Assembly: GCF_003367905.1 (NCBI RefSeq)
Contig: NZ_CP029462.1
Coordinates: 806,001 to 870,000, forward strand
Length of the DNA stretch: 64,000 nucleotides
From: Megasphaera stantonii
GTDB lineage: Bacteria; Bacillota; Negativicutes; Veillonellales; Megasphaeraceae
Direction of reading: 5' to 3'
The notes under the pieces were generated by a model. That model saw nothing but the letters and a program-made list of their open reading frames with translations, was not told the DNA's origin and made no database searches. Positions 43,739 through 56,231 of the stretch are shown one piece after another. The translations under genes and the position numbers were made by a program. How positions within the stretch are numbered: position 1 is the first letter of the stretch; each line of letters begins with the position of its first letter.

Positions 43739-44155
43739 TTATTTTTTCATGACGCGGGCTTCGCCGTCCGTTACGACCTTGCCGTCCTGATTGGTTACGG
43801 TCGTCTTGAAGATAATGCGGTGTTTTGCATCGTCTTTTTCCTTGCATTCTACCGTCGCGGTCAGCGTATCACCGTAGAATACCGGTGCCAGGAAGCTGAG
43901 GGACTGATTCATGTAAATCGTGTTCACGCCCGGCAGCTCCGTGCCCAGTACGGCCGAAATCAGGCCTGCCGACAACATGCCATGGGCAATGCGCTGTTTG
44001 AACATGGAATCCTTAGCGAATTCTTTGTTGATGTGAACGGGGTTGAAGTCCGTCGTTACGCCGGCAAAGGCATATACGTCGAATTCGGAAATCGTCTTCG
44101 ATACAGATGCTTTATCACCGATCTTAATATCTTCATATTTTACGTCTTTTGCCAT
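43739..44155 (-). CDS. MaoC/PhaJ-type (R)-specific enoyl-CoA hydratase, copy B
   Basis: A 138-residue protein nearly identical to copy A at 39469-39885, with the same D36/H41 pair. The first two-thirds of its codons match copy A almost base for base; synonymous differences gather in the last 90 bases. Same expected reaction: (R)-3-hydroxyacyl-CoA to enoyl-CoA. Confidence 0.9.
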   Translation of the reverse strand: MAKDVKYEDIKIGDKASVSKTISEFDVYAFAGVTTDFNPVHINKEFAKDSMFKQRIAHGMLSAGLISAVLGTELPGVNTIYMNQSLSFLAPVFYGDTLTATVECKEKDDAKHRIIFKTTVTNQDGKVVTDGEARVMKK

Positions 44156-44193
44156 TTCTGCATCTCCTCCTTGCTTACCTTACGGATATACTA

Positions 44194-45735
44194 TTACAGT
44201 TCCAAACCCATGGGTTTGTCTTCAAAGATACGAGCGTCCATCAGCTTGACGTCTTTGACGATGGGCTTGAAGTCCATGTATGCCAATACGTCTTTTTCGA
44301 TGTCGATGCCCGGTGCCACTTCGATCAGTTCCAAGCCTTCCGGAGTCAGCTTGAATACGGCGCGTTCCGTGACGTACAGTACGGGCTGTCCTACGGCATT
44401 TGCATAGGCGCCGCTGAACGTTACCTGTTCTACCTGATTCAGGAACTTCTTATTCCGGCCTTCGCTCGTGATGACCAGTTTGCCGTCTTTGACTTCTTCC
44501 TTCAGGCCGCCGGCTGTGAAGGTGCCGCAGAAGATTACCTTCTTGGAGTTCTGCGTGATGTTGATGAAGCCGCCGCAGCCTGCTACACGGCCATTGAACT
44601 TACTTACGTTGATATTGCCGTTGACATCCGATTCAGCCAAGCCGAGGATTGCCAGGTCTACGCCGCCGCCGTCATAGAAGTCAAACTGGTACGGCTGGTC
44701 GAGGATAACCGAGGCGTTCGTGGCTGCGCCGAAGCTCAGGCCGCCGGCCGGTACGCCGCCGATAGTGCCTGCTTCTGTCGTCAGTACCATGCTGTCGATG
44801 CCTTCTTCAGCGGCAACGATGGAAACGCCTTCAGGCATGCCGATACCGAGGTTTACGACTGCGTCGGGAATCAGTTCCATAGCGCAGCGGCGGGCAATGA
44901 TCTTGCGGTTGTTCAGTTTCAGCGGAGCTACCGAATCCAGAGGAACTTTTACATCGCCGTTGAATGCCGGGTTGTACGCATAATCCCAAGTCATCATATG
45001 GTCAGCTTCGTCAGCTTTTACGACATAGTCGACGATTACGCCGGGGATCTTAACGTCTCTCGGGTCCAGCGTATTCTTAGCTGCTACATCTTTTACCTGA
45101 ACGATAACGATGCCGCCGCAGGCTTTAGCTGCTTCAGCGATAGCCAAGGCTTCGCCCGTGCCGATTTCGCCGTCCATCGTAACGTTGCCGTCTTCGTCGG
45201 CTGTCGTGCCGCGGATGATAGCTACATCAATTTTGTGCGGATGATACCAGAGCCATTCTTCGCCGCCCAATTCAATAACTTCAACGATATCTTCCTTCGT
45301 TACATCGTTGATTTTGCCGCCTTCCAGACGAGGATCAACGAAGGTACGGAGGCCGACTTTGGTAATCGTGCCGGGACGGCGGCCCGCGATGTCGCGGAAC
45401 CATTGGGAAATCGTACCCTGCGGCAGGTTGTAGGCTTCTACCTTATTGTTGTTGATCAATTCGCCGAGACGCGGGGACAAGTTGAAATGACCGCCGATAA
45501 TGCGTTTCATCAAACCTTCTTCGCCGAGGTGGTTCAGACCGCGTTCGCCGCTGTCGCCCTGACCAGCCGCATATACGATAGACAAATCCTTCGGCGTGCC
45601 GTTGGCTTTAAACGAAGCCTGGATTTCCTTCAATACGGCTTCTGCAAGCAAGCCACCGACAAAACCGCTCGTTGCTAACATGGAACCATCTTTAATCTGC
45701 TGAACCGCTTCAGCAGCCGTTACAAATTTTGCCAT
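44194..45735 (-). CDS. Family I CoA-transferase (acetate/propionate type), copy B
   Basis: A 513-residue paralog of the CoA-transferase at 39925-41466. From about residue 125 to the end I see only two amino-acid differences (V to I in EGVSIVAAEEG, K to N in KKFLNQVEQ). The first 125 residues carry about twenty (for example DGSMLATSGFVGGLLAEAVL). The start MAKFVTAAEAV follows GGAGGAG. The same catalytic glutamate is present. Keeping both copies may raise dosage or adjust substrate choice through the N-terminal domain. Confidence 0.9.
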   Translation of the reverse strand: MAKFVTAAEAVQQIKDGSMLATSGFVGGLLAEAVLKEIQASFKANGTPKDLSIVYAAGQGDSGERGLNHLGEEGLMKRIIGGHFNLSPRLGELINNNKVEAYNLPQGTISQWFRDIAGRRPGTITKVGLRTFVDPRLEGGKINDVTKEDIVEVIELGGEEWLWYHPHKIDVAIIRGTTADEDGNVTMDGEIGTGEALAIAEAAKACGGIVIVQVKDVAAKNTLDPRDVKIPGVIVDYVVKADEADHMMTWDYAYNPAFNGDVKVPLDSVAPLKLNNRKIIARRCAMELIPDAVVNLGIGMPEGVSIVAAEEGIDSMVLTTEAGTIGGVPAGGLSFGAATNASVILDQPYQFDFYDGGGVDLAILGLAESDVNGNINVSKFNGRVAGCGGFINITQNSKKVIFCGTFTAGGLKEEVKDGKLVITSEGRNKKFLNQVEQVTFSGAYANAVGQPVLYVTERAVFKLTPEGLELIEVAPGIDIEKDVLAYMDFKPIVKDVKLMDARIFEDKPMGLEL

Positions 45736-45788
45736 GATGAGCATCTCCTCCCATTCTATACTTCAACAAACGTCTATATATAAATCGT

Positions 45789-47204
45789 TTAGTGGAGCCC
45801 TGTTACAGAGTAGATAAAGATGATGACGAATACGGTGAAGGTCTTCAATACCGTAATCGCAAAGATATCTTTATACGATTCTTTATGGGTCAGGCCGCAA
45901 ACTGCGAGCAGCGTGATAACCGCGCCGTTATGGGGCAAGGTATCCAAACCGCCGGAAGCCATAGAGGCGACGCGGTGGAGGATTTCCGGACCCATGCCGA
46001 TAGACTGACCCCAAGCGAGCCAATCCTGAGCCATCAGTTCCAAGGCGATAGCCAAACCGCCGGAAGCGGAGCCTGTAATACCGGCCAGTACCGTTACGCT
46101 GACAGCTTCAGATACGAGCGGCGTGCCGCCGATATGGATGCTGATGAGGAAGTTAGCAACTTCAGCGAAGCCCGGAAGCTGGGAGATAACGTTACCATAA
46201 CCAACTTCGGATGCCGTGTTCATAATAGCGAGCAGGGAGCCGATAGCACCGGCGTTGAGGATCTTGGACATGCCGTCGACCGTTTTGATTTCGCGCCAGC
46301 CGACAACCAAGGCTACCAAAATACCGCTTACGAGAGCGATGATAAGGGACCAGATACTAGCTACGTTCTGAACCTTAGCAGCTACGAGGGGAACGCCCTT
46401 CATGGAGTGGAAGGGTTCCAAAATAGCCGGGTTCCATGTAACAAATTCCGTAACTGCAAAGTTGACGACCAATACCGTTACCAGCGGCAGGCAGGCAACA
46501 TACCAGGGGAACAATCTTGCGTTCGGATCGATAACCGGTTCGTTCGTCGTGTGGTTGCCGTAGCCTTCGCCCTTGGCAATCGCAGCTTTCAAACGATGGG
46601 TTACATAGAAAATACCTAAGCCGTAAATAATAGCCGAGCCGATGAAGCCGGCGAGAGGACCGGCATAGAGGTTCGTGCCGAAATATGTCGTCGGAATAAC
46701 GTTCTGAATCTGCGGAGTGCCCGGCAAGGCGTCCATCGTAGCCGTAAACGCGCCGAGGGCAATGCAGACCGGGATTAAACGTTTCGGATAATTTGCTTCT
46801 TTAAAGAGAGCCGCAGCAAAGGGATATACTGCGAATACAACGACGAACAAGAGAACGCCGCCATAGGTCAGGATCGAACCTGCCAATACGATGGAGAGAA
46901 CGGCTTTAGCCGGTTCTTTGCCCAAGCCATTGATGATGGCGCTGGCCAAGCCGCGGGCCAATCCAGTTTCTTCCATGACTTTACCAAAAATAGCACCTAA
47001 CATGAATACCGGGAAGTACGATTTGATGTACGTTACAGCCTTGCCCATGAACAATTCGGTGTACGAAGGCATAACGTCAAGGCCAGTCAAGGTAGCCGCC
47101 AAGATAGCCATGATTGGAGCCATCATGATAACGGAGAAGCCACGGTATGCAAAGGTCATCAAGCCAATCAAGCTCAGCAGAATAACGAGAATGTTAAAAT
47201 CCAT
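45789..47204 (-). CDS. GntP-family permease, copy B
   Basis: A 471-residue permease paralogous to copy A. Differences are scattered, for example TMDALPGTPQIQN for TMDCLPGTPQIQN and FHSMKGVPLVAAK for FQHMKGVPLVAAK. This gene pair shows no near-identical tract like the one in the CoA-transferase. AAAGGAGATG precedes the ATG. It heads operon copy B and lies 311 bases downstream of a LysR gene. Confidence 0.88.
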   Translation of the reverse strand: MDFNILVILLSLIGLMTFAYRGFSVIMMAPIMAILAATLTGLDVMPSYTELFMGKAVTYIKSYFPVFMLGAIFGKVMEETGLARGLASAIINGLGKEPAKAVLSIVLAGSILTYGGVLLFVVVFAVYPFAAALFKEANYPKRLIPVCIALGAFTATMDALPGTPQIQNVIPTTYFGTNLYAGPLAGFIGSAIIYGLGIFYVTHRLKAAIAKGEGYGNHTTNEPVIDPNARLFPWYVACLPLVTVLVVNFAVTEFVTWNPAILEPFHSMKGVPLVAAKVQNVASIWSLIIALVSGILVALVVGWREIKTVDGMSKILNAGAIGSLLAIMNTASEVGYGNVISQLPGFAEVANFLISIHIGGTPLVSEAVSVTVLAGITGSASGGLAIALELMAQDWLAWGQSIGMGPEILHRVASMASGGLDTLPHNGAVITLLAVCGLTHKESYKDIFAITVLKTFTVFVIIFIYSVTGLH

Positions 47205-49264: not shown

Positions 49265-50818
49265 ATGAAAAAAGTGAAAGTTATCACATCATCTCAAGCA
49301 GCCGAATTGGTCAAAGATAACGATACCATAACGTCTATCGGCTTCGTCAGCTGCGCTCATCCCGAGGCTTTGACCAAAGCCTTGGAAAAACGATTTTTAG
49401 AAACAGGCTCTCCTAAAAATCTGACGTATATGTACGCCGCATCGCAGGGAAAACGCGATGGCCGCGGCGGTGAACATCTCGCTCACGAAGGGTTGCTGAA
49501 GCGTATTATTATCGGCCACTACCAAACGGTACCGGCAATCGGCAAGTTGGCCGTAGAAAACAAAATCGAAGCGTATAACTGCTCTCAAGGCACGTTAGTT
49601 CATTGGTTCCGAGCCTTGGCCGGCCATAAAATCGGTGTGTTTACCGATATTGGTCTCGGTACCTTCCTCGATCCTCGTCAAGGCGGCGGCAAGCTCAATG
49701 ACGTTACAAAGGAAGACATTGTAAAACTGTTGGAAATCGAAGGACAGGAACAGCTTTTCTACCCGACATTCCCGATCAACGTCGCCTTCCTGCGCGGTAC
49801 ATATGCCGACGAATGCGGCAATATTACGATGGAAGAAGAAGTAGCTCCGTTGGAAAATACGTCCGTAGCCCAGGCAGTTCATAACTGCGGCGGCATCGTC
49901 GTCGTTCAGGTTAAACAAATTGTCGAACACGGCAACTTGGACCCGCGCCTCGTAAAAATCCCCGGGATTTACGTCGATTACGTCGTAGTCGCCGACGAAG
50001 CCGACCATGAACAGGCCTTTGGCTGTGCATACGATCCGACGCTGTGCGGTGAACGTCGCGCCCCCTTAGGCGAAGCTAGCGAAGCGCTTCCTATGAGCGC
50101 CAAGAAAATTATCGGTCGCCGCGGCGCCTTGTTCCTAAAGGAAAACGCCATCGTCAATCTCGGCGTAGGCGCACCGGAATATGTCGCTTCCATCGCTGAT
50201 GAAGAAGGCATTTCCGATACGATTACCTTAACGGTGGAAAACGGAGCCATCGGCGGCGTGCCCCAGGGCGGCGCGCAGTTCGGCTCAACGCGAAACGCCG
50301 AAGCCATCATCGATCACACCTACCAATTTGATTTCTACGACGGCGGCGGTTTGGATATGGCCTTTTTAGGCTTGGCGCAATGCGATAAAACAGGCAACAT
50401 CAACGTCAGCAAATTTGGAACGAACATCGCCGGCTGCGGCGGTTTTCCCGATATTTCCCAGCAGACGCCAAACGTATTCTTCTGCGGCACCTTTACGGCC
50501 GGCGGCTTAAAAATCGCCGTTGAAGATGGCAAGGTACACATTGTACAAGAAGGTAAATCAAAGAAGTTTGTCGATGCCGTAGATCAGATTACGTTCAATG
50601 GAGCATACGCCGCCCGCCGCGGTCAGCATGTCTTTTACATTACAGAACGATGCGTTTTTGAATTGACGGCAGAGGGTTTGAAGTTGATCGAAGTGGCCCC
50701 TGGCATCGACGTCGAAAAGGATATCCTCGCCCATATGGATTTCAAGCCCATCGTAGGAGAATACAGCCTGATGGACAGCCGCATTTTCCAAGACGGGCCG
50801 ATGGGCTTAAAACAGTAA
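49265..50818 (+). CDS. pct: Propionate CoA-transferase
   Basis: A 517-residue family I CoA-transferase that activates lactate with CoA from propionyl- or acetyl-CoA. The sequence closely resembles what I remember of M. elsdenii Pct along its whole length (for example NDTITSIGFVSCAHPEALTK, NCSQGTLVHWFRALAGHK). The active-site glutamate is near residue 325 in TLTVENGAIGGVPQGG. It is first in the operon with the lactoyl-CoA dehydratase genes, which fixes its role as the entry step of the acrylate pathway. It is clearly distinct from the two duplicated paralogs at 39925 and 44194. Confidence 0.96.
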   Translation: MKKVKVITSSQAAELVKDNDTITSIGFVSCAHPEALTKALEKRFLETGSPKNLTYMYAASQGKRDGRGGEHLAHEGLLKRIIIGHYQTVPAIGKLAVENKIEAYNCSQGTLVHWFRALAGHKIGVFTDIGLGTFLDPRQGGGKLNDVTKEDIVKLLEIEGQEQLFYPTFPINVAFLRGTYADECGNITMEEEVAPLENTSVAQAVHNCGGIVVVQVKQIVEHGNLDPRLVKIPGIYVDYVVVADEADHEQAFGCAYDPTLCGERRAPLGEASEALPMSAKKIIGRRGALFLKENAIVNLGVGAPEYVASIADEEGISDTITLTVENGAIGGVPQGGAQFGSTRNAEAIIDHTYQFDFYDGGGLDMAFLGLAQCDKTGNINVSKFGTNIAGCGGFPDISQQTPNVFFCGTFTAGGLKIAVEDGKVHIVQEGKSKKFVDAVDQITFNGAYAARRGQHVFYITERCVFELTAEGLKLIEVAPGIDVEKDILAHMDFKPIVGEYSLMDSRIFQDGPMGLKQ

Positions 50819-50843: not shown

Positions 50844-51752
50844 ATGAAACCCATGAGATTACACCACGTCGGCATCGTATTGCCGACACTGCAGAAAGCG
50901 CACGACTTCATCGAAGCCAACGGCTTGGAAATCGACTATGCCGGCTTCGTCGACGCCTATCACGCCGACTTGATTTTCACCAAAAAGGGCCCTTTCAGCA
51001 GCCCTTTGGAAATGATCATCCCTCGCGAAGGTGTCCTGACGAAGTTCAATAACGGCAAAGGGGGCATCGCCCATATTGCCTTCGAAGTCGACGACGTAGA
51101 AGCTGTCCGCCAGGAAATGGAAGCTGAATGTCCCGGCTGCATGCTGGAAAAGAAAGCCGTATTAGGCACCGACGATATTATCGTCAACTTCCGCCGCCCC
51201 AGCACCAATCAGGGGATTCTCGTCGAATACGTTCAGACGACGGCTCCTATTACGGGCCGCGACGTCAACCCGTTTGAATCCTTGGGAGAAGCCGGCAAGC
51301 TCAATACATCATGGCATCCCATGCGCCTTCACCACGTCGGCATCGTCCTCCCGACGATGGAAAAAGCCGAAGCCTTTATCAAAGCCAACGGCCTTGAAGT
51401 CGATTACGCCGGCTTCGTCGACGCCTATCACGCCGACCTCGTCTTTACGAAGAAAGGCGAATTCAGTACGCCGCTGGAAATGATTATCCCCCGCGAAGGC
51501 GTCCTGACGAAATTCAACAACGGTAAAGGCGGCATCGCTCATATCGCGTTTGAAGTCGACGACGTAGAAGCCGTCCGTCAGCATATGGAAAAAGAATGCC
51601 CCGGCTGCATGCTGGAAAAGAAAGCCGTATTAGGCACCGACGACATCATCGTCAACTTCCGCCGCCCCAGCACCAATCAGGGCATCCTCGTCGAATACGT
51701 TCAGACCATCGCCCCGATCAACCGCAGCAACCCTAATCCCTTTGAAAAATAA
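50844..51752 (+). CDS. Two-domain VOC protein, methylmalonyl-CoA epimerase-like
   Basis: A 302-residue protein made of two nearly identical vicinal-oxygen-chelate halves 156 residues apart. Each half keeps the metal-ligand pattern of methylmalonyl-CoA epimerase: H8, E56, H77 and E128 in the first, H164, E212, H233 and E284 in the second. Motifs are LHHVGIVLP, PLEMIIPREGVLTKF and GGIAHIAFEVDDV. It lies 25 bases after pct and just before lcdC, inside the acrylate operon. Related enzymes epimerise 2-methylmalonyl-CoA or act as glyoxalases. A lactoyl-CoA epimerase role is my inference. Confidence 0.85.
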   Translation: MKPMRLHHVGIVLPTLQKAHDFIEANGLEIDYAGFVDAYHADLIFTKKGPFSSPLEMIIPREGVLTKFNNGKGGIAHIAFEVDDVEAVRQEMEAECPGCMLEKKAVLGTDDIIVNFRRPSTNQGILVEYVQTTAPITGRDVNPFESLGEAGKLNTSWHPMRLHHVGIVLPTMEKAEAFIKANGLEVDYAGFVDAYHADLVFTKKGEFSTPLEMIIPREGVLTKFNNGKGGIAHIAFEVDDVEAVRQHMEKECPGCMLEKKAVLGTDDIIVNFRRPSTNQGILVEYVQTIAPINRSNPNPFEK

Positions 51753-51779
51753 CAACGCAAACCAGAAAGGATGAAACCC

Positions 51780-52556
51780 ATGTATACTCTTGGAATCGAC
51801 GTCGGCTCGTCGTCGTCCAAAGCCGTCATTTTAGAAAATGGAAAACATATCATATCCCACGCTGTCGTGGAAATCGGCACGGGGTCGACAGGGCCGGAAC
51901 GCGTTCTGGAAGACGTCTTCTCCGGCACGGGCCTTACGATGGACGACATGGCCCATATCATTGCGACGGGCTATGGGCGCTTCAACGTCGACTGCGCCAA
52001 AGGCGAAGTCAGCGAAATTACCTGCCACGCCAAAGGAGCCCTCTTCGAATGTCCCGGCACGACGACGATTCTTGACATTGGCGGCCAAGACGTAAAAGCA
52101 ATAAAGCTAAATACACAAGGCTTGGTCATGCAGTTCGCCATGAACGACAAATGCGCCGCCGGTACGGGCCGCTTCCTCGATGTCATGTCCAAGGTATTGG
52201 AAATCCCTATGTCCGATATGGGCGACTGGTATTTTAAATCACAAAACCCGGCCCCGGTCAGCAGCACCTGCACGGTCTTCGCCGAATCGGAAGTCATTTC
52301 CCTGTTGTCTAAAAACGTCCCGAAGGAAGACATCGTCGCCGGCGTGCACCGCTCTATCGCCAGCAAGGCCAGCGCCTTGGTCCGCCGCGTCGGCGTCGGT
52401 CCCGACCTTACCATGACCGGCGGCGGTTCCCGCGACGCCGGCGTCGTAGACGCTATATCCAAAGAATTAGGCATTCCCGTCAATGTAGCCCTGCACCCCC
52501 AGGTAGTCGGAGCACTGGGCGCCGCATTGATTGCCTATGATAAAGTCACCAAATAA
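51780..52556 (+). CDS. lcdC: Activator of lactoyl-CoA (2-hydroxyacyl-CoA) dehydratase
   Basis: A 258-residue ASKHA-fold ATPase that injects one electron into the dehydratase. The ATP site motifs are GIDVGSSSSKAVIL at the N terminus and ILDIGGQDVKAI near residue 100. The cysteines C125 (NDKCAAGTGRFLD) and C164 (SSTCTVFAESEV) hold the dimer-bridging 4Fe-4S cluster. I use the second ATG, since AAAGGA abuts the first one. It comes before lcdA, as usual. Confidence 0.95.
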   Translation: MYTLGIDVGSSSSKAVILENGKHIISHAVVEIGTGSTGPERVLEDVFSGTGLTMDDMAHIIATGYGRFNVDCAKGEVSEITCHAKGALFECPGTTTILDIGGQDVKAIKLNTQGLVMQFAMNDKCAAGTGRFLDVMSKVLEIPMSDMGDWYFKSQNPAPVSSTCTVFAESEVISLLSKNVPKEDIVAGVHRSIASKASALVRRVGVGPDLTMTGGGSRDAGVVDAISKELGIPVNVALHPQVVGALGAALIAYDKVTK

Positions 52557-52572
52557 CAAAGGAGAGATCTCA

Positions 52573-53859
52573 ATGAGTGAAGAAAAAACGATTGATATTG
52601 AAAGCATGAGCGCTAAAGACGCTCTCGGCTATTTTCTGCCGAAAGTAGACGAAGACGCCCGCATCGCAAAAAAAGAAGGCCGCCTCGTCTGCTGGTCCGC
52701 TTCCGTAGCACCTCCCGAATTCTGCACCGCTATGGACATTGCCATCGTATATCCTGAAACCCACGCCGCCGGCATCGGCGCCCGTCACGGCGCGCCGGCT
52801 ATGCTTGAAGTCGCTGAAAACAAAGGCTACAACCAGGATATCTGTTCGTACTGCCGCGTCAATATGGGCTACATGGAGCTCCTCAAGCAGCAGGCCCTGA
52901 CAGGTGAAACGCCGGAAGCCCTGAAAAACTCCCCCGCTTCGCCGATCCCCTTGCCGGACGTCATTCTGACCTGCAACAACATCTGCAACACCTTGCTCAA
53001 ATGGTATGAAAACATGGCAAAGGAACTGAACATTCCCTTAATTACCATCGACGTTCCGTTTAACCACGAATATCCCGTTACCAAACATGCCAAACAGTAT
53101 ATCGTCGGCGAATTCAAGCACGCCATCAAACAGCTCGAAGAATTATGCGGCCGTCCCTTCGACTATGACAAATTCTTCGAAGTACAGAAACAGACACAGC
53201 GTTCTATCGCCGCCTGGAACAAAATTGCCACGTATTTGACATATAAGCCGTCTCCCTTAAACGGCTTCGACCTGTTCAACTACATGGGCCTGGCCGTTGC
53301 GGCTCGTTCCTTAAATTATTCCGAAATCACCTTTAACAAACTCATCAAAGAATTAGACGCTAAATTAGCCGCTAAAAAATACGCTTTTGGCGAAAACGAA
53401 AAGACCCGCGTAACCTGGGAAGGCATCGCCGTATGGATCGCGTTGGGCCATACGTTCAAAGCCTTGAAGAATCAGGGCGCGTTGATGACCGGCTCAGCAT
53501 ATCCCGGCATGTGGGACGTTTCGTATGAACCGGGCAACCTCGAATCCATGGCCGAAGCTTACACGCGAACCTACATTAACTGCTGCCTCGAACGGCGCGG
53601 CGAAGTATTGGAAAAAGTCGTCCGCGACGGCCAGTGCGACGGCCTCATCATGCACCAGAACCGCTCCTGCAAGAACATGAGCCTCTTAAACGACGAAGGC
53701 GGCAAACGCATCCAGAAGAACCTCGGCGTCCCCTACGTCATTTTCGACGGCGACCAGACGGACCCCCGCAACTTCTCGGAAGCGCAGTTTGACACACGCG
53801 TAGAAGCATTATGCGAAATGATGAACGAAAAGAAAGCCAACGAAGGAGGCAATCACTAA
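52573..53859 (+). CDS. lcdA: Lactoyl-CoA dehydratase, alpha subunit
   Basis: A 428-residue FldB/FldC/HgdA-type subunit that, with LcdB, removes water from (R)-lactoyl-CoA to give acryloyl-CoA by a ketyl-radical mechanism. Cysteines in ICSYCRVNMGYM and TCNNICNTLLKWYE are candidate cluster ligands, as in the family. I start at MSEEKTIDIESM, after GGAGAG; an in-frame upstream ATG would overlap lcdC. The stop overlaps the lcdB start. Other 2-hydroxyacyl-CoA substrates are possible, but the linked pct supports lactate. Confidence 0.93.
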   Translation: MSEEKTIDIESMSAKDALGYFLPKVDEDARIAKKEGRLVCWSASVAPPEFCTAMDIAIVYPETHAAGIGARHGAPAMLEVAENKGYNQDICSYCRVNMGYMELLKQQALTGETPEALKNSPASPIPLPDVILTCNNICNTLLKWYENMAKELNIPLITIDVPFNHEYPVTKHAKQYIVGEFKHAIKQLEELCGRPFDYDKFFEVQKQTQRSIAAWNKIATYLTYKPSPLNGFDLFNYMGLAVAARSLNYSEITFNKLIKELDAKLAAKKYAFGENEKTRVTWEGIAVWIALGHTFKALKNQGALMTGSAYPGMWDVSYEPGNLESMAEAYTRTYINCCLERRGEVLEKVVRDGQCDGLIMHQNRSCKNMSLLNDEGGKRIQKNLGVPYVIFDGDQTDPRNFSEAQFDTRVEALCEMMNEKKANEGGNH

Positions 53860-54980
53860 TGAGCCATATTGATGAACTGATCAGCAAATTTCAAGACGTA
53901 GCAAACCATCCGAAAAAAACGGTATTAGAATATAAAAAGAACACCGGCAAAGGCCTCGTCGGCATTATGCCCTACTATGCACCGGAAGAAATCGTATACG
54001 CCGCAGGCTATCTCCCTGTCGGACTCTTCGGCGCGCAGAAACCGCAGATTTCCGCAGCCCGCACGTATTTGCCGCCCTTCGCCTGCTCCCTCATGCAGGC
54101 CGACATGGAGCTGCAGCTCAACGGTACCTATGACTGTCTCGATGCGGTCATCTTCTCCGTCCCCTGCGATACGCTCCGCTGCATGAGCCAGAAATGGCAC
54201 GGCAAAGCTCCGGTCATCGTATTTACGCATCCGCAAAACCGTAAAATCGATGCTGCTGTCGACTTCCTCAAAGGCGAATACGAACACGTCCGCAGCGAAT
54301 TAGAACGCATTTTGGGCGTAACCATTACCGACATGGCTTTGCAGGAAGCAATCAAAGTCTACAACGAAAACCGCCGCGTCATGCGCGAATTCTGCGACGT
54401 CGCCGCTCAGTATCCGCAAATCTTTACGCCGGTAAAACGCCATGACGTCATCAAAGCCCGCTGGTTCATGGATAAAGCCGAACACACGGCCTTAGTCCGT
54501 CAGCTCATCGACGCCGTCAAAGCCGAACCGGTACAGCCCTGGAAGGGCAAGAAGATTATTCTGTCCGGCATTATGGCCGAACCGGACGAATTCCTCGACA
54601 TCTTCAGCGAATTCAACATGGCCGTCGTCGCCGACGATTTGGCCCAGGAATCGCGCCAGTACCGCAACGACGTTCCCTCCGGCATCGATCCGTTGGAACA
54701 GCTTGCTAAATGGTGGCAGGACTTCGACGGTTGCCCCTTGGCTATGAACCCGGACAAACCGCGCGGACAAATGCTTATCGACATGGCGAAAAAATACGAC
54801 GCCGACGCTGTTGTCGTCTGCTTGATGCGCTTCTGCGACCCCGAAGAATTCGATTATCCTATCTACAAAGTCGAATTTGAAGAAGCAGGACTTCGCTATA
54901 CTGTTCTCGACGTCGATTTGGAATCGCCGTCTTTGGAACAGATGCGTACCCGTATTCAGGCATTCTCTGAAATGCTCTAA
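53859..54980 (+). CDS. lcdB: Lactoyl-CoA dehydratase, beta subunit
   Basis: A 373-residue partner of LcdA. Its ATG shares a base with the lcdA stop (TAATG), with GGAGG upstream, so the subunits are translated together. The motifs GIMPYYAPEEIVYAAGYLPV and CDPEEFDYPIYK fit the beta subunit of 2-hydroxyacyl-CoA dehydratases, with cysteines in PPFACSLMQAD and LMRFCDPEEF as likely cluster ligands. After its stop a large hairpin precedes the acyl-CoA dehydrogenase gene. Confidence 0.93.
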   Translation: MSHIDELISKFQDVANHPKKTVLEYKKNTGKGLVGIMPYYAPEEIVYAAGYLPVGLFGAQKPQISAARTYLPPFACSLMQADMELQLNGTYDCLDAVIFSVPCDTLRCMSQKWHGKAPVIVFTHPQNRKIDAAVDFLKGEYEHVRSELERILGVTITDMALQEAIKVYNENRRVMREFCDVAAQYPQIFTPVKRHDVIKARWFMDKAEHTALVRQLIDAVKAEPVQPWKGKKIILSGIMAEPDEFLDIFSEFNMAVVADDLAQESRQYRNDVPSGIDPLEQLAKWWQDFDGCPLAMNPDKPRGQMLIDMAKKYDADAVVVCLMRFCDPEEFDYPIYKVEFEEAGLRYTVLDVDLESPSLEQMRTRIQAFSEML

Positions 54981-55085: not shown

Positions 55086-56231
55086 ATGGATTTTAAGCTC
55101 ACAGAAATGCAGCAAGACATTGCAAACCTCGCGAAAGATTTCGCTGAAAAGAAATTGGCCCCGACCGTCAAAGAACGCGACGAAAAAGAAGTCTTCGACC
55201 GCGCTATCCTCGATGAAATGGGCACCCTCGGCCTCCTCGGCATTCCCTGGGAAGAAGAAAACGGCGGCGTTGGCGCCGACTTCCTCAGCCTGGCCGTTGC
55301 CTGCGAAGAAGTCGCAAAAGTCGACCCCTCCATCGCTTTGAGCTTCGAAGTTCACACCATGCTCTGCTCCTGGCCTATCTGGAAGTTCGGCACGGCAGAA
55401 CAGAAAGAAAAATATTTGAAACCCCTGGCAGAAGGCACGAAGCTCGGCGCTTTCGGCTTGACCGAACCCAACGCCGGCACGGACGCCCTCAACGGCTCCA
55501 CAACAGCCGTTAAAGAAGGCGACTACTACGTCCTCAACGGCTCCAAAGTGTTCAACACCAACGGCGGCGAAGCCGACGTAACCATCGTATTCGCAGCTAC
55601 GGACAAATCCAAGGGCGCGAAGGGCATGAGCGCGTTCATCGTCGAAAAAGGTATGGAAGGCTTCACCTACGGCAAAGAAGAAGTTAAAATGGGTATCCGT
55701 GCTTCCGTACAGCGTGAACTCGTATTCCAGAACGTCAAAGTTCCGGCAGCCAACCTCCTCGGCAAGGAAGGCGAAGGCTTCAAGATCGCTATGATGACCC
55801 TTGACGGCGGCCGCGTAGGCGTCGGCGCACAGGCTCTCGGCATTGCAGAAGGCGCGTATAACGAAGCTGTGAAATACGCAAAAGAACGCGTTCAGTTCGG
55901 CAAACCCATCGCTACGAAACAGGCCATCGCCTTCATGCTCGCTGACATGAAGCTCAAGATTGAAACGGCTCGCCTCGCCGTATACAAAGCTGCCTGGAAG
56001 ATGGGCCAGCCCGACGTGAAGTCTTACTCCATGGACGCGGCTATCGCTAAGAAATACGCTTCCGACATCGCTATGCAGGTCACGACAGACGCCGTACAGG
56101 TCTTCGGCGGCTACGGCTTCACCCGCGAATACCCGGTAGAACGGTACATGCGCGACGCCAAGATCACCCAGATCTACGAAGGCACGAACCAGGTACAGCA
56201 GATGATTATTTCCGGCTCTATCCTGCGGTAA
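55086..56231 (+). CDS. Acyl-CoA dehydrogenase, probable acryloyl-CoA reductase
   Basis: A 381-residue FAD enzyme of the short-chain acyl-CoA dehydrogenase family. GAFGLTEPNAGTDALNGSTT and KVFNTNGGEADVTIVFAAT line the flavin and substrate sites, and the catalytic glutamate is in IYEGTNQVQQM near residue 364. In this operon it should reduce acryloyl-CoA to propionyl-CoA, the last carbon step of the acrylate pathway. Butyryl-CoA dehydrogenase is the alternative. No etfA/etfB genes lie beside it, so its electron partner must be encoded elsewhere. GGAGGA precedes the ATG. Confidence 0.9.
   Translation: MDFKLTEMQQDIANLAKDFAEKKLAPTVKERDEKEVFDRAILDEMGTLGLLGIPWEEENGGVGADFLSLAVACEEVAKVDPSIALSFEVHTMLCSWPIWKFGTAEQKEKYLKPLAEGTKLGAFGLTEPNAGTDALNGSTTAVKEGDYYVLNGSKVFNTNGGEADVTIVFAATDKSKGAKGMSAFIVEKGMEGFTYGKEEVKMGIRASVQRELVFQNVKVPAANLLGKEGEGFKIAMMTLDGGRVGVGAQALGIAEGAYNEAVKYAKERVQFGKPIATKQAIAFMLADMKLKIETARLAVYKAAWKMGQPDVKSYSMDAAIAKKYASDIAMQVTTDAVQVFGGYGFTREYPVERYMRDAKITQIYEGTNQVQQMIISGSILR

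Follow-up and report, generated by a model that had tools for sequence, protein, structure and literature searches.

How bacteria that rely on the acrylate pathway make use of L-lactate is a question raised directly by the gene described here, for the pathway dehydrates only (R)-lactoyl-CoA, yet some of these bacteria subsist on L-lactate. In the window, by which we mean the whole 64,000-nucleotide stretch of the Megasphaera stantonii genome that was analysed, an ORF with an ATG start (50844-51752, plus strand) encodes a protein of 302 residues with two Glyoxalase_4 (PF13669) stretches. It begins 25 bp past the stop of pct (49265-50818, plus strand), whose product is a predicted propionate/lactate CoA-transferase on the basis of a CoA_trans (PF01144) match and its operon position, and ends 18 bp ahead of lcdC (51771-52556, plus strand), the dehydratase activator ATPase (BcrAD_BadFG; TIGR00241 above cut-off). 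The plus strand continues with the two lactoyl-CoA dehydratase subunits, both assigned from HGD-D (PF06050) matches and their translations, namely lcdA (52531-53859 as a TTG ORF, with the likely start an ATG near 52573) and lcdB (53811-54980 as listed, likely start an ATG near 53859), and then with an acyl-CoA dehydrogenase that is the probable acryloyl-CoA reductase (55086-56231; Acyl-CoA_dh Pfam set, with NF042972 as top NCBIfam match below its cut-off). A VOC gene resembling methylmalonyl-CoA epimerase (MCE) within a pct-lcdCAB (lap) cluster is what defines lapB, and we therefore refer to the gene by that name. A few kilobases upstream of the operon lies a separate cluster on the minus strand (43739-47204) with a second Pct-type CoA-transferase (44194-45744), a MaoC-type hydratase and a large permease-like gene.

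The preliminary description of this DNA had reported a duplicated VOC protein between pct and lcdC, and the gene bears this out. Its N-terminal half (residues 1-137; 50844-51254, plus strand), delimited by alignment, the domain model and matches to MCE structures, is joined by a linker (residues 138-159; 51255-51320, plus strand), placed by alignment of tandem and single-domain forms, to a C-terminal half defined by alignment (residues 160-302; 51321-51749, plus strand). Aligned with one another, the two halves match at 125 of 143 residues and at 349 of 429 nucleotides. The His-Glu-His-Glu ligand pattern, likewise noted earlier, is found in each half, as H8, E56, H77 and E128 in the first and H164, E212, H233 and E284 in the second. 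These positions are unchanged across both halves of all 10 tandem proteins aligned, and the same set occurs in 41 of 41 LapB domains, so that LapB probably binds metal and a single chain would carry two active sites. The model predicted for one LapB domain has a pLDDT of 89.4. Confidence in the full-length prediction is low (pLDDT 55), so no model supports how the halves pack against one another.

We consider it probable, at roughly 0.7, that the gene encodes a VOC-fold CoA-thioester epimerase that would interconvert (S)- and (R)-lactoyl-CoA, a substrate and reaction read from sequence, ligand conservation, the predicted domain fold, operon context, the absence of a mutase and the distribution of the gene. 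Pct would presumably move CoA onto L-lactate, and a divalent metal held by the His-Glu-His-Glu set of each VOC half would chelate lactoyl-CoA through its thioester carbonyl and its C2 hydroxyl. By analogy with glyoxalase I and MCE, acidic residues at the ligand positions would then take and return the C2 proton via an enediolate, and the resulting (R)-lactoyl-CoA could pass to the D-specific dehydratase LcdABC or return through Pct to give D-lactate for oxidation. The tandem protein would be the usual dimer in covalent form, both of its active sites complete. An enediolate mechanism is known for glyoxalase I and for MCE with their own substrates. Against this reading stands the chemistry, in that a 2-hydroxyacyl-CoA has no second carbonyl of the kind that eases deprotonation of methylmalonyl-CoA, as does the presence of LarA homologues in this organism, with which the step may not be needed.

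The idea itself is not new, contrary to what the preliminary description had supposed, although that description arrived at it independently. Passages of Sheridan et al. 2022 (PMC8914356) report a lap cluster in Coprococcus catus found by transcriptomics, in which an MCE homologue, named lapB and up 11.8 log2 on lactate, was proposed to convert L- to D-lactoyl-CoA, and they note lap homologues in M. elsdenii that include one of lapB. A search of full-text literature retrieved only this paper and a review that cites it, and no assay of an epimerase or racemase acting on lactoyl-CoA or a 2-hydroxyacyl-CoA was found. Going by these passages, the LapB of C. catus GD/7 and the window protein agree in their partners (Pct, LcdABC and a lactate permease), in their homology to MCE and in the proposed reaction, a likeness drawn from gene context and description. 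The window protein differs in being two fused domains, and the passages in question make no mention of duplication, of separate permease cassettes or of a mutase test. What is added here, namely the wider context, the permease cassettes, the mutase test, a LapB residue signature and the distribution of tandem and single forms, makes the genomic case for the earlier proposal considerably stronger.

One competing explanation makes the protein a genuine methylmalonyl-CoA epimerase that works in the succinate (methylmalonyl-CoA) route. Its top NCBIfam match is TIGR03081, and the closest solved structures are MCEs (PDB 1jc5, 3rmu and 6wf6), to which the domain model matches with Z scores of 14-17. 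LapB shares with these enzymes the VOC fold, the metal ligand positions (His, Glu/Gln, His, Glu), a CoA-thioester context and about 21-28% identity. However, the full protein scores only 81.6 bits over two domains against TIGR03081, and the single LapB domains tabulated score 41-64, under a cut-off of 114.95; two clostridial MCE controls in the same genome search gave 178.7 and 178.8 bits. Methylmalonyl-CoA mutase (PF01642), a full pathway for which had been named beforehand as evidence against a lactoyl-CoA epimerase, was found in none of 17 genomes of the window's family, this one included, and in none of 32 lapB genomes, but is present in all four genomes of the true-MCE controls. No lapB gene was seen next to a mutase in the loci inspected; the two MCE controls inspected adjoin a B12-binding mutase part, a MeaB-like GTPase and a carboxyltransferase (gene names assigned by eye from the sequences).

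The residues point the same way. LapB H8, E56, H77 and E128 align with H7, Q60, H84 and E134 of the Streptomyces coelicolor MCE, and the human enzyme holds its metal via His50, His122 and Glu172. Three residues, H7, Y39 and R118, are invariant and specific to LapB, whereas seven MCE-like proteins have D/N, Q/H and H there; the fused tandem form in Megasphaera is a further difference. Taken with the mutase absence and the TIGR03081 score, these led us to discard the MCE role, which is ruled out to the extent that genomes allow and which we regard as extremely improbable. E43 of the S. coelicolor MCE, the residue altered in PDB 6xbr and 6xbs, was also considered as a discriminator and dropped, being Val in human MCE and other than Glu in Bacillus and clostridial proteins; the Leu that LapB has at this position was nonetheless counted against a lactoyl-CoA epimerase. 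MCE-like matches of the LapB type can be misread in annotation as a succinate route to propionate, a route that the mutase test finds absent from the lapB genomes examined.

The fold is also that of glyoxalase I (lactoylglutathione lyase), with which LapB shares the His-Glu-His-Glu metal site and whose known mechanism passes through a lactoyl-thioester enediolate. Two-domain glyoxalases of about 300 residues exist (5d7z and 6bnn), and clostridial glyoxalases match the domain model with a Z score of 15. One could accordingly imagine a glyoxalase-like enzyme that forms lactoyl-CoA from a methylglyoxal-CoA hemithioacetal or a related by-product, or that removes such a compound. The scores are nevertheless marginal and indicate another subfamily (27.5 bits against a cut-off of 120 for TIGR00068, and 19.4 against 165 for NF050074). 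Moreover, lapB keeps company with genes for lactate uptake and CoA transfer, and no methylglyoxal genes were noted in the loci inspected, which makes such a role decidedly improbable.

The distribution of lapB bears on the lactoyl-CoA epimerase reading from a different side. Scanning 84,980 species genomes yielded 29 loci, 26 of them with at least 62% identity, hereafter the named relatives, which span Megasphaera, Peptoniphilus, Intestinimonas, Clostridium, Fusobacterium and Desulfovibrio. The preliminary description had suggested looking for the gene beside pct and lcdABC elsewhere, and all 26 relatives indeed adjoin pct and/or lcdCAB, with lcd genes nearby in 23 and pct only in three, one of which is interrupted by the end of its contig. 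The genes are arranged as pct-lapB-lcdCAB, as lapB-lcdCAB-pct or, in the same-genus genome G014, as pct-lcdC-lapB-lcdAB. Since the order varies and the cassette is present in metagenome-assembled genomes (MAGs) labelled Fusobacterium and Desulfovibrio, these sequences suggest transfer of the lapB cassette between lineages.

Within the window's family, lapB and an lcdB orthologue (>80% identity) coincide exactly, both being present in 10 genomes (10/10 lapB genomes) and neither in seven, counts that describe related genomes and not independent events. So tight a linkage to lcdCAB in most genomes would also suit a protein with some other, accessory role in the acrylate pathway, for example in the handling or repair of acryloyl-CoA. 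The co-occurrence in the family of Tyzzerella sp. An114 is, however, one-way, with an lcdB-like gene in 51 of 58 genomes and lapB in nine, all nine of which have the lcdB-like gene (9/9), so that most lcdB-bearing genomes lack lapB. Separate cassettes also exist in several genomes of this family, as pct-lapB-permease (L086, L087 and L148) or lapB-permease (L144 and L145), and the permease adjoining lapB in L087 is a Lactate_perm (PF02652) protein; in the two genomes examined the lcd cluster and its own pct are located apart from lapB (loci L151 and L152). D-lactate specialists likewise manage without lapB (PMC8914356, in the passages cited, and PMC13411273), and an accessory role of this kind is unlikely. 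Because lapB occurs with a lactate permease and pct apart from lcd, it is tied to lactate or lactoyl-CoA and not to the dehydratase: it moves with lactate uptake and CoA transfer and is dispensable to the dehydratase, as expected of an epimerase at the entry point. In the stretch read, one further copy (genome G480), with 60% identity to the Tyzzerella protein, is remote from pct, lcd and permease genes.

It is also conceivable that the enzyme is an epimerase working mainly on a different 2-hydroxyacyl-CoA (2-hydroxybutyryl-CoA, for instance) and that lactoyl-CoA is a secondary substrate. Close relatives are present in organisms beyond the known lactate fermenters, Peptoniphilus and Desulfovibrio among them, and a more distant one, 47% identical, stands near a pct-like gene with no lcd genes nearby. 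The lactate permease genes next to lapB in several genomes and the strong lactate induction of C. catus lapB (PMC8914356, same passages) argue for lactate instead, leaving this option a small share of the probability. The distant relative, treated here as an outgroup, is the VOC gene of genome G252 (L071, 7737-8126, minus strand), compared with LapB of G014; its neighbours are thiolase-like, 3-hydroxyacyl-CoA dehydrogenase-like and pct-like CoA-transferase genes, and its product may epimerise a different acyl-CoA.

If LapB interconverts the lactoyl-CoA enantiomers, its relation to the lactate racemase LarA (PF09861) has to be considered, an unrelated nickel enzyme that acts on free lactate and leads to the same physiological outcome of making both enantiomers usable. 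LarA-family homologues are encoded elsewhere in this genome (L074, 3560-4600, minus strand; L075, 2249-3577 and 16272-17579, both plus strand). The last of these is followed by a D-lactate-dehydrogenase-type FAD-linked oxidase and preceded, at a distance of a few genes, by a lactate permease. Two of the LarA-family genes in all adjoin FAD-linked oxidase-type genes, one of them confirmed by Pfam. The anticorrelation of lapB with larA that the preliminary description predicted was not found among the 26 named lapB genomes or in the 58-genome family: a clear LarA is present in 16 of the former, and in the latter it occurs in 4 of 9 genomes with lapB and 11 of 49 without, which counts against a lactoyl-CoA epimerase. 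The 10 named genomes without a clear LarA, some of them MAGs that may be incomplete, include M. hutchinsoni, Peptoniphilus indolicus, Clostridium sporosphaeroides and Tyzzerella sp. An114. LapB can therefore stand without LarA, yet it is no simple replacement for it. The suggestion that it replaces or supplements LarA thus holds in its second part here, because LarA homologues are present, while replacement is plausible only in those 10 genomes. The reading as a lactoyl-CoA epimerase stands as the best explanation, with no mutase in this genome or its family, but without the claim to novelty and without the larA pattern.

Published phenotypes can be set beside this distribution. According to the passages of PMC8914356, Anaerotignum propionicum has the acrylate pathway without lapB and cannot use L-lactate; it is a D-lactate specialist whose MAG lacks a lactate racemase (PMC13411273). 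A. neopropionicum grows on D- and not on L-lactate and has no annotated racemase (PMC9205015, for phenotype and racemase annotation only). M. elsdenii uses both lactate isomers and has a lactate-inducible racemase activity (PMC10819428, PMC13319893), part of which could in principle be Pct and LapB acting together in extracts that contain CoA. The broader proposition, that a VOC-fold 2-hydroxyacyl-CoA epimerase and a reversible Pct together provide a nickel-free, CoA-dependent racemisation of lactate, in Megasphaera through a single-chain tandem with two active sites, we hold to be evenly balanced. If true, an epimerase at the level of the CoA ester would explain L-lactate use by acrylate-pathway bacteria without LarA, make it easier to tell in advance which bacteria of the gut and rumen remove L-lactate, and extend a well-studied fold by one enzyme activity.

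The tandem arrangement appears to be a local elaboration. LapBs seen outside the Megasphaera/Anaeroglobus clade are single-domain, the common form, and tandem fusions were seen only within that clade. In the tree, the C halves form a supported group (95/88) within the 16-row set of fused halves, and the single-domain lapB of G014 branches outside this set. In Clostridium sp. ZS2-4 two separate lapB genes, 92% identical, stand next to each other (L076, 9869-10884), a pair that resembles an unfused stage of the Megasphaera arrangement. The earlier wording of near-identical halves fits this genome best, with 121 residues and 88 third positions out of 138 shared between its N and C halves, compared with 99-113 and 65-76 in the other tandem proteins. 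Its halves also share A25, L55, N70 and L107, which occur in no other tandem half compared. This unusual likeness and the four private residues are suggestive, and only suggestive, of partial gene conversion between the halves rather than a recent duplication.

Many of the lapB genes or operons outside Megasphaera have next to them, in divergent orientation, a conserved gene for a protein of about 495 residues with a helix-turn-helix-like start (GYDISYISKWCNK). Copies lie on the minus strand in L079 (8111-9613), L080 (8308-9795), L086 (6327-7823), L087 (6337-7830), L088 (8204-9694), L091 (8388-9836), L101 (8155-9668, as two ORFs) and L147 (7861-9342), and on the plus strand in L144 (4043-5569). 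The two copies scanned gave no Pfam match, and the protein may be a lactate-responsive regulator.
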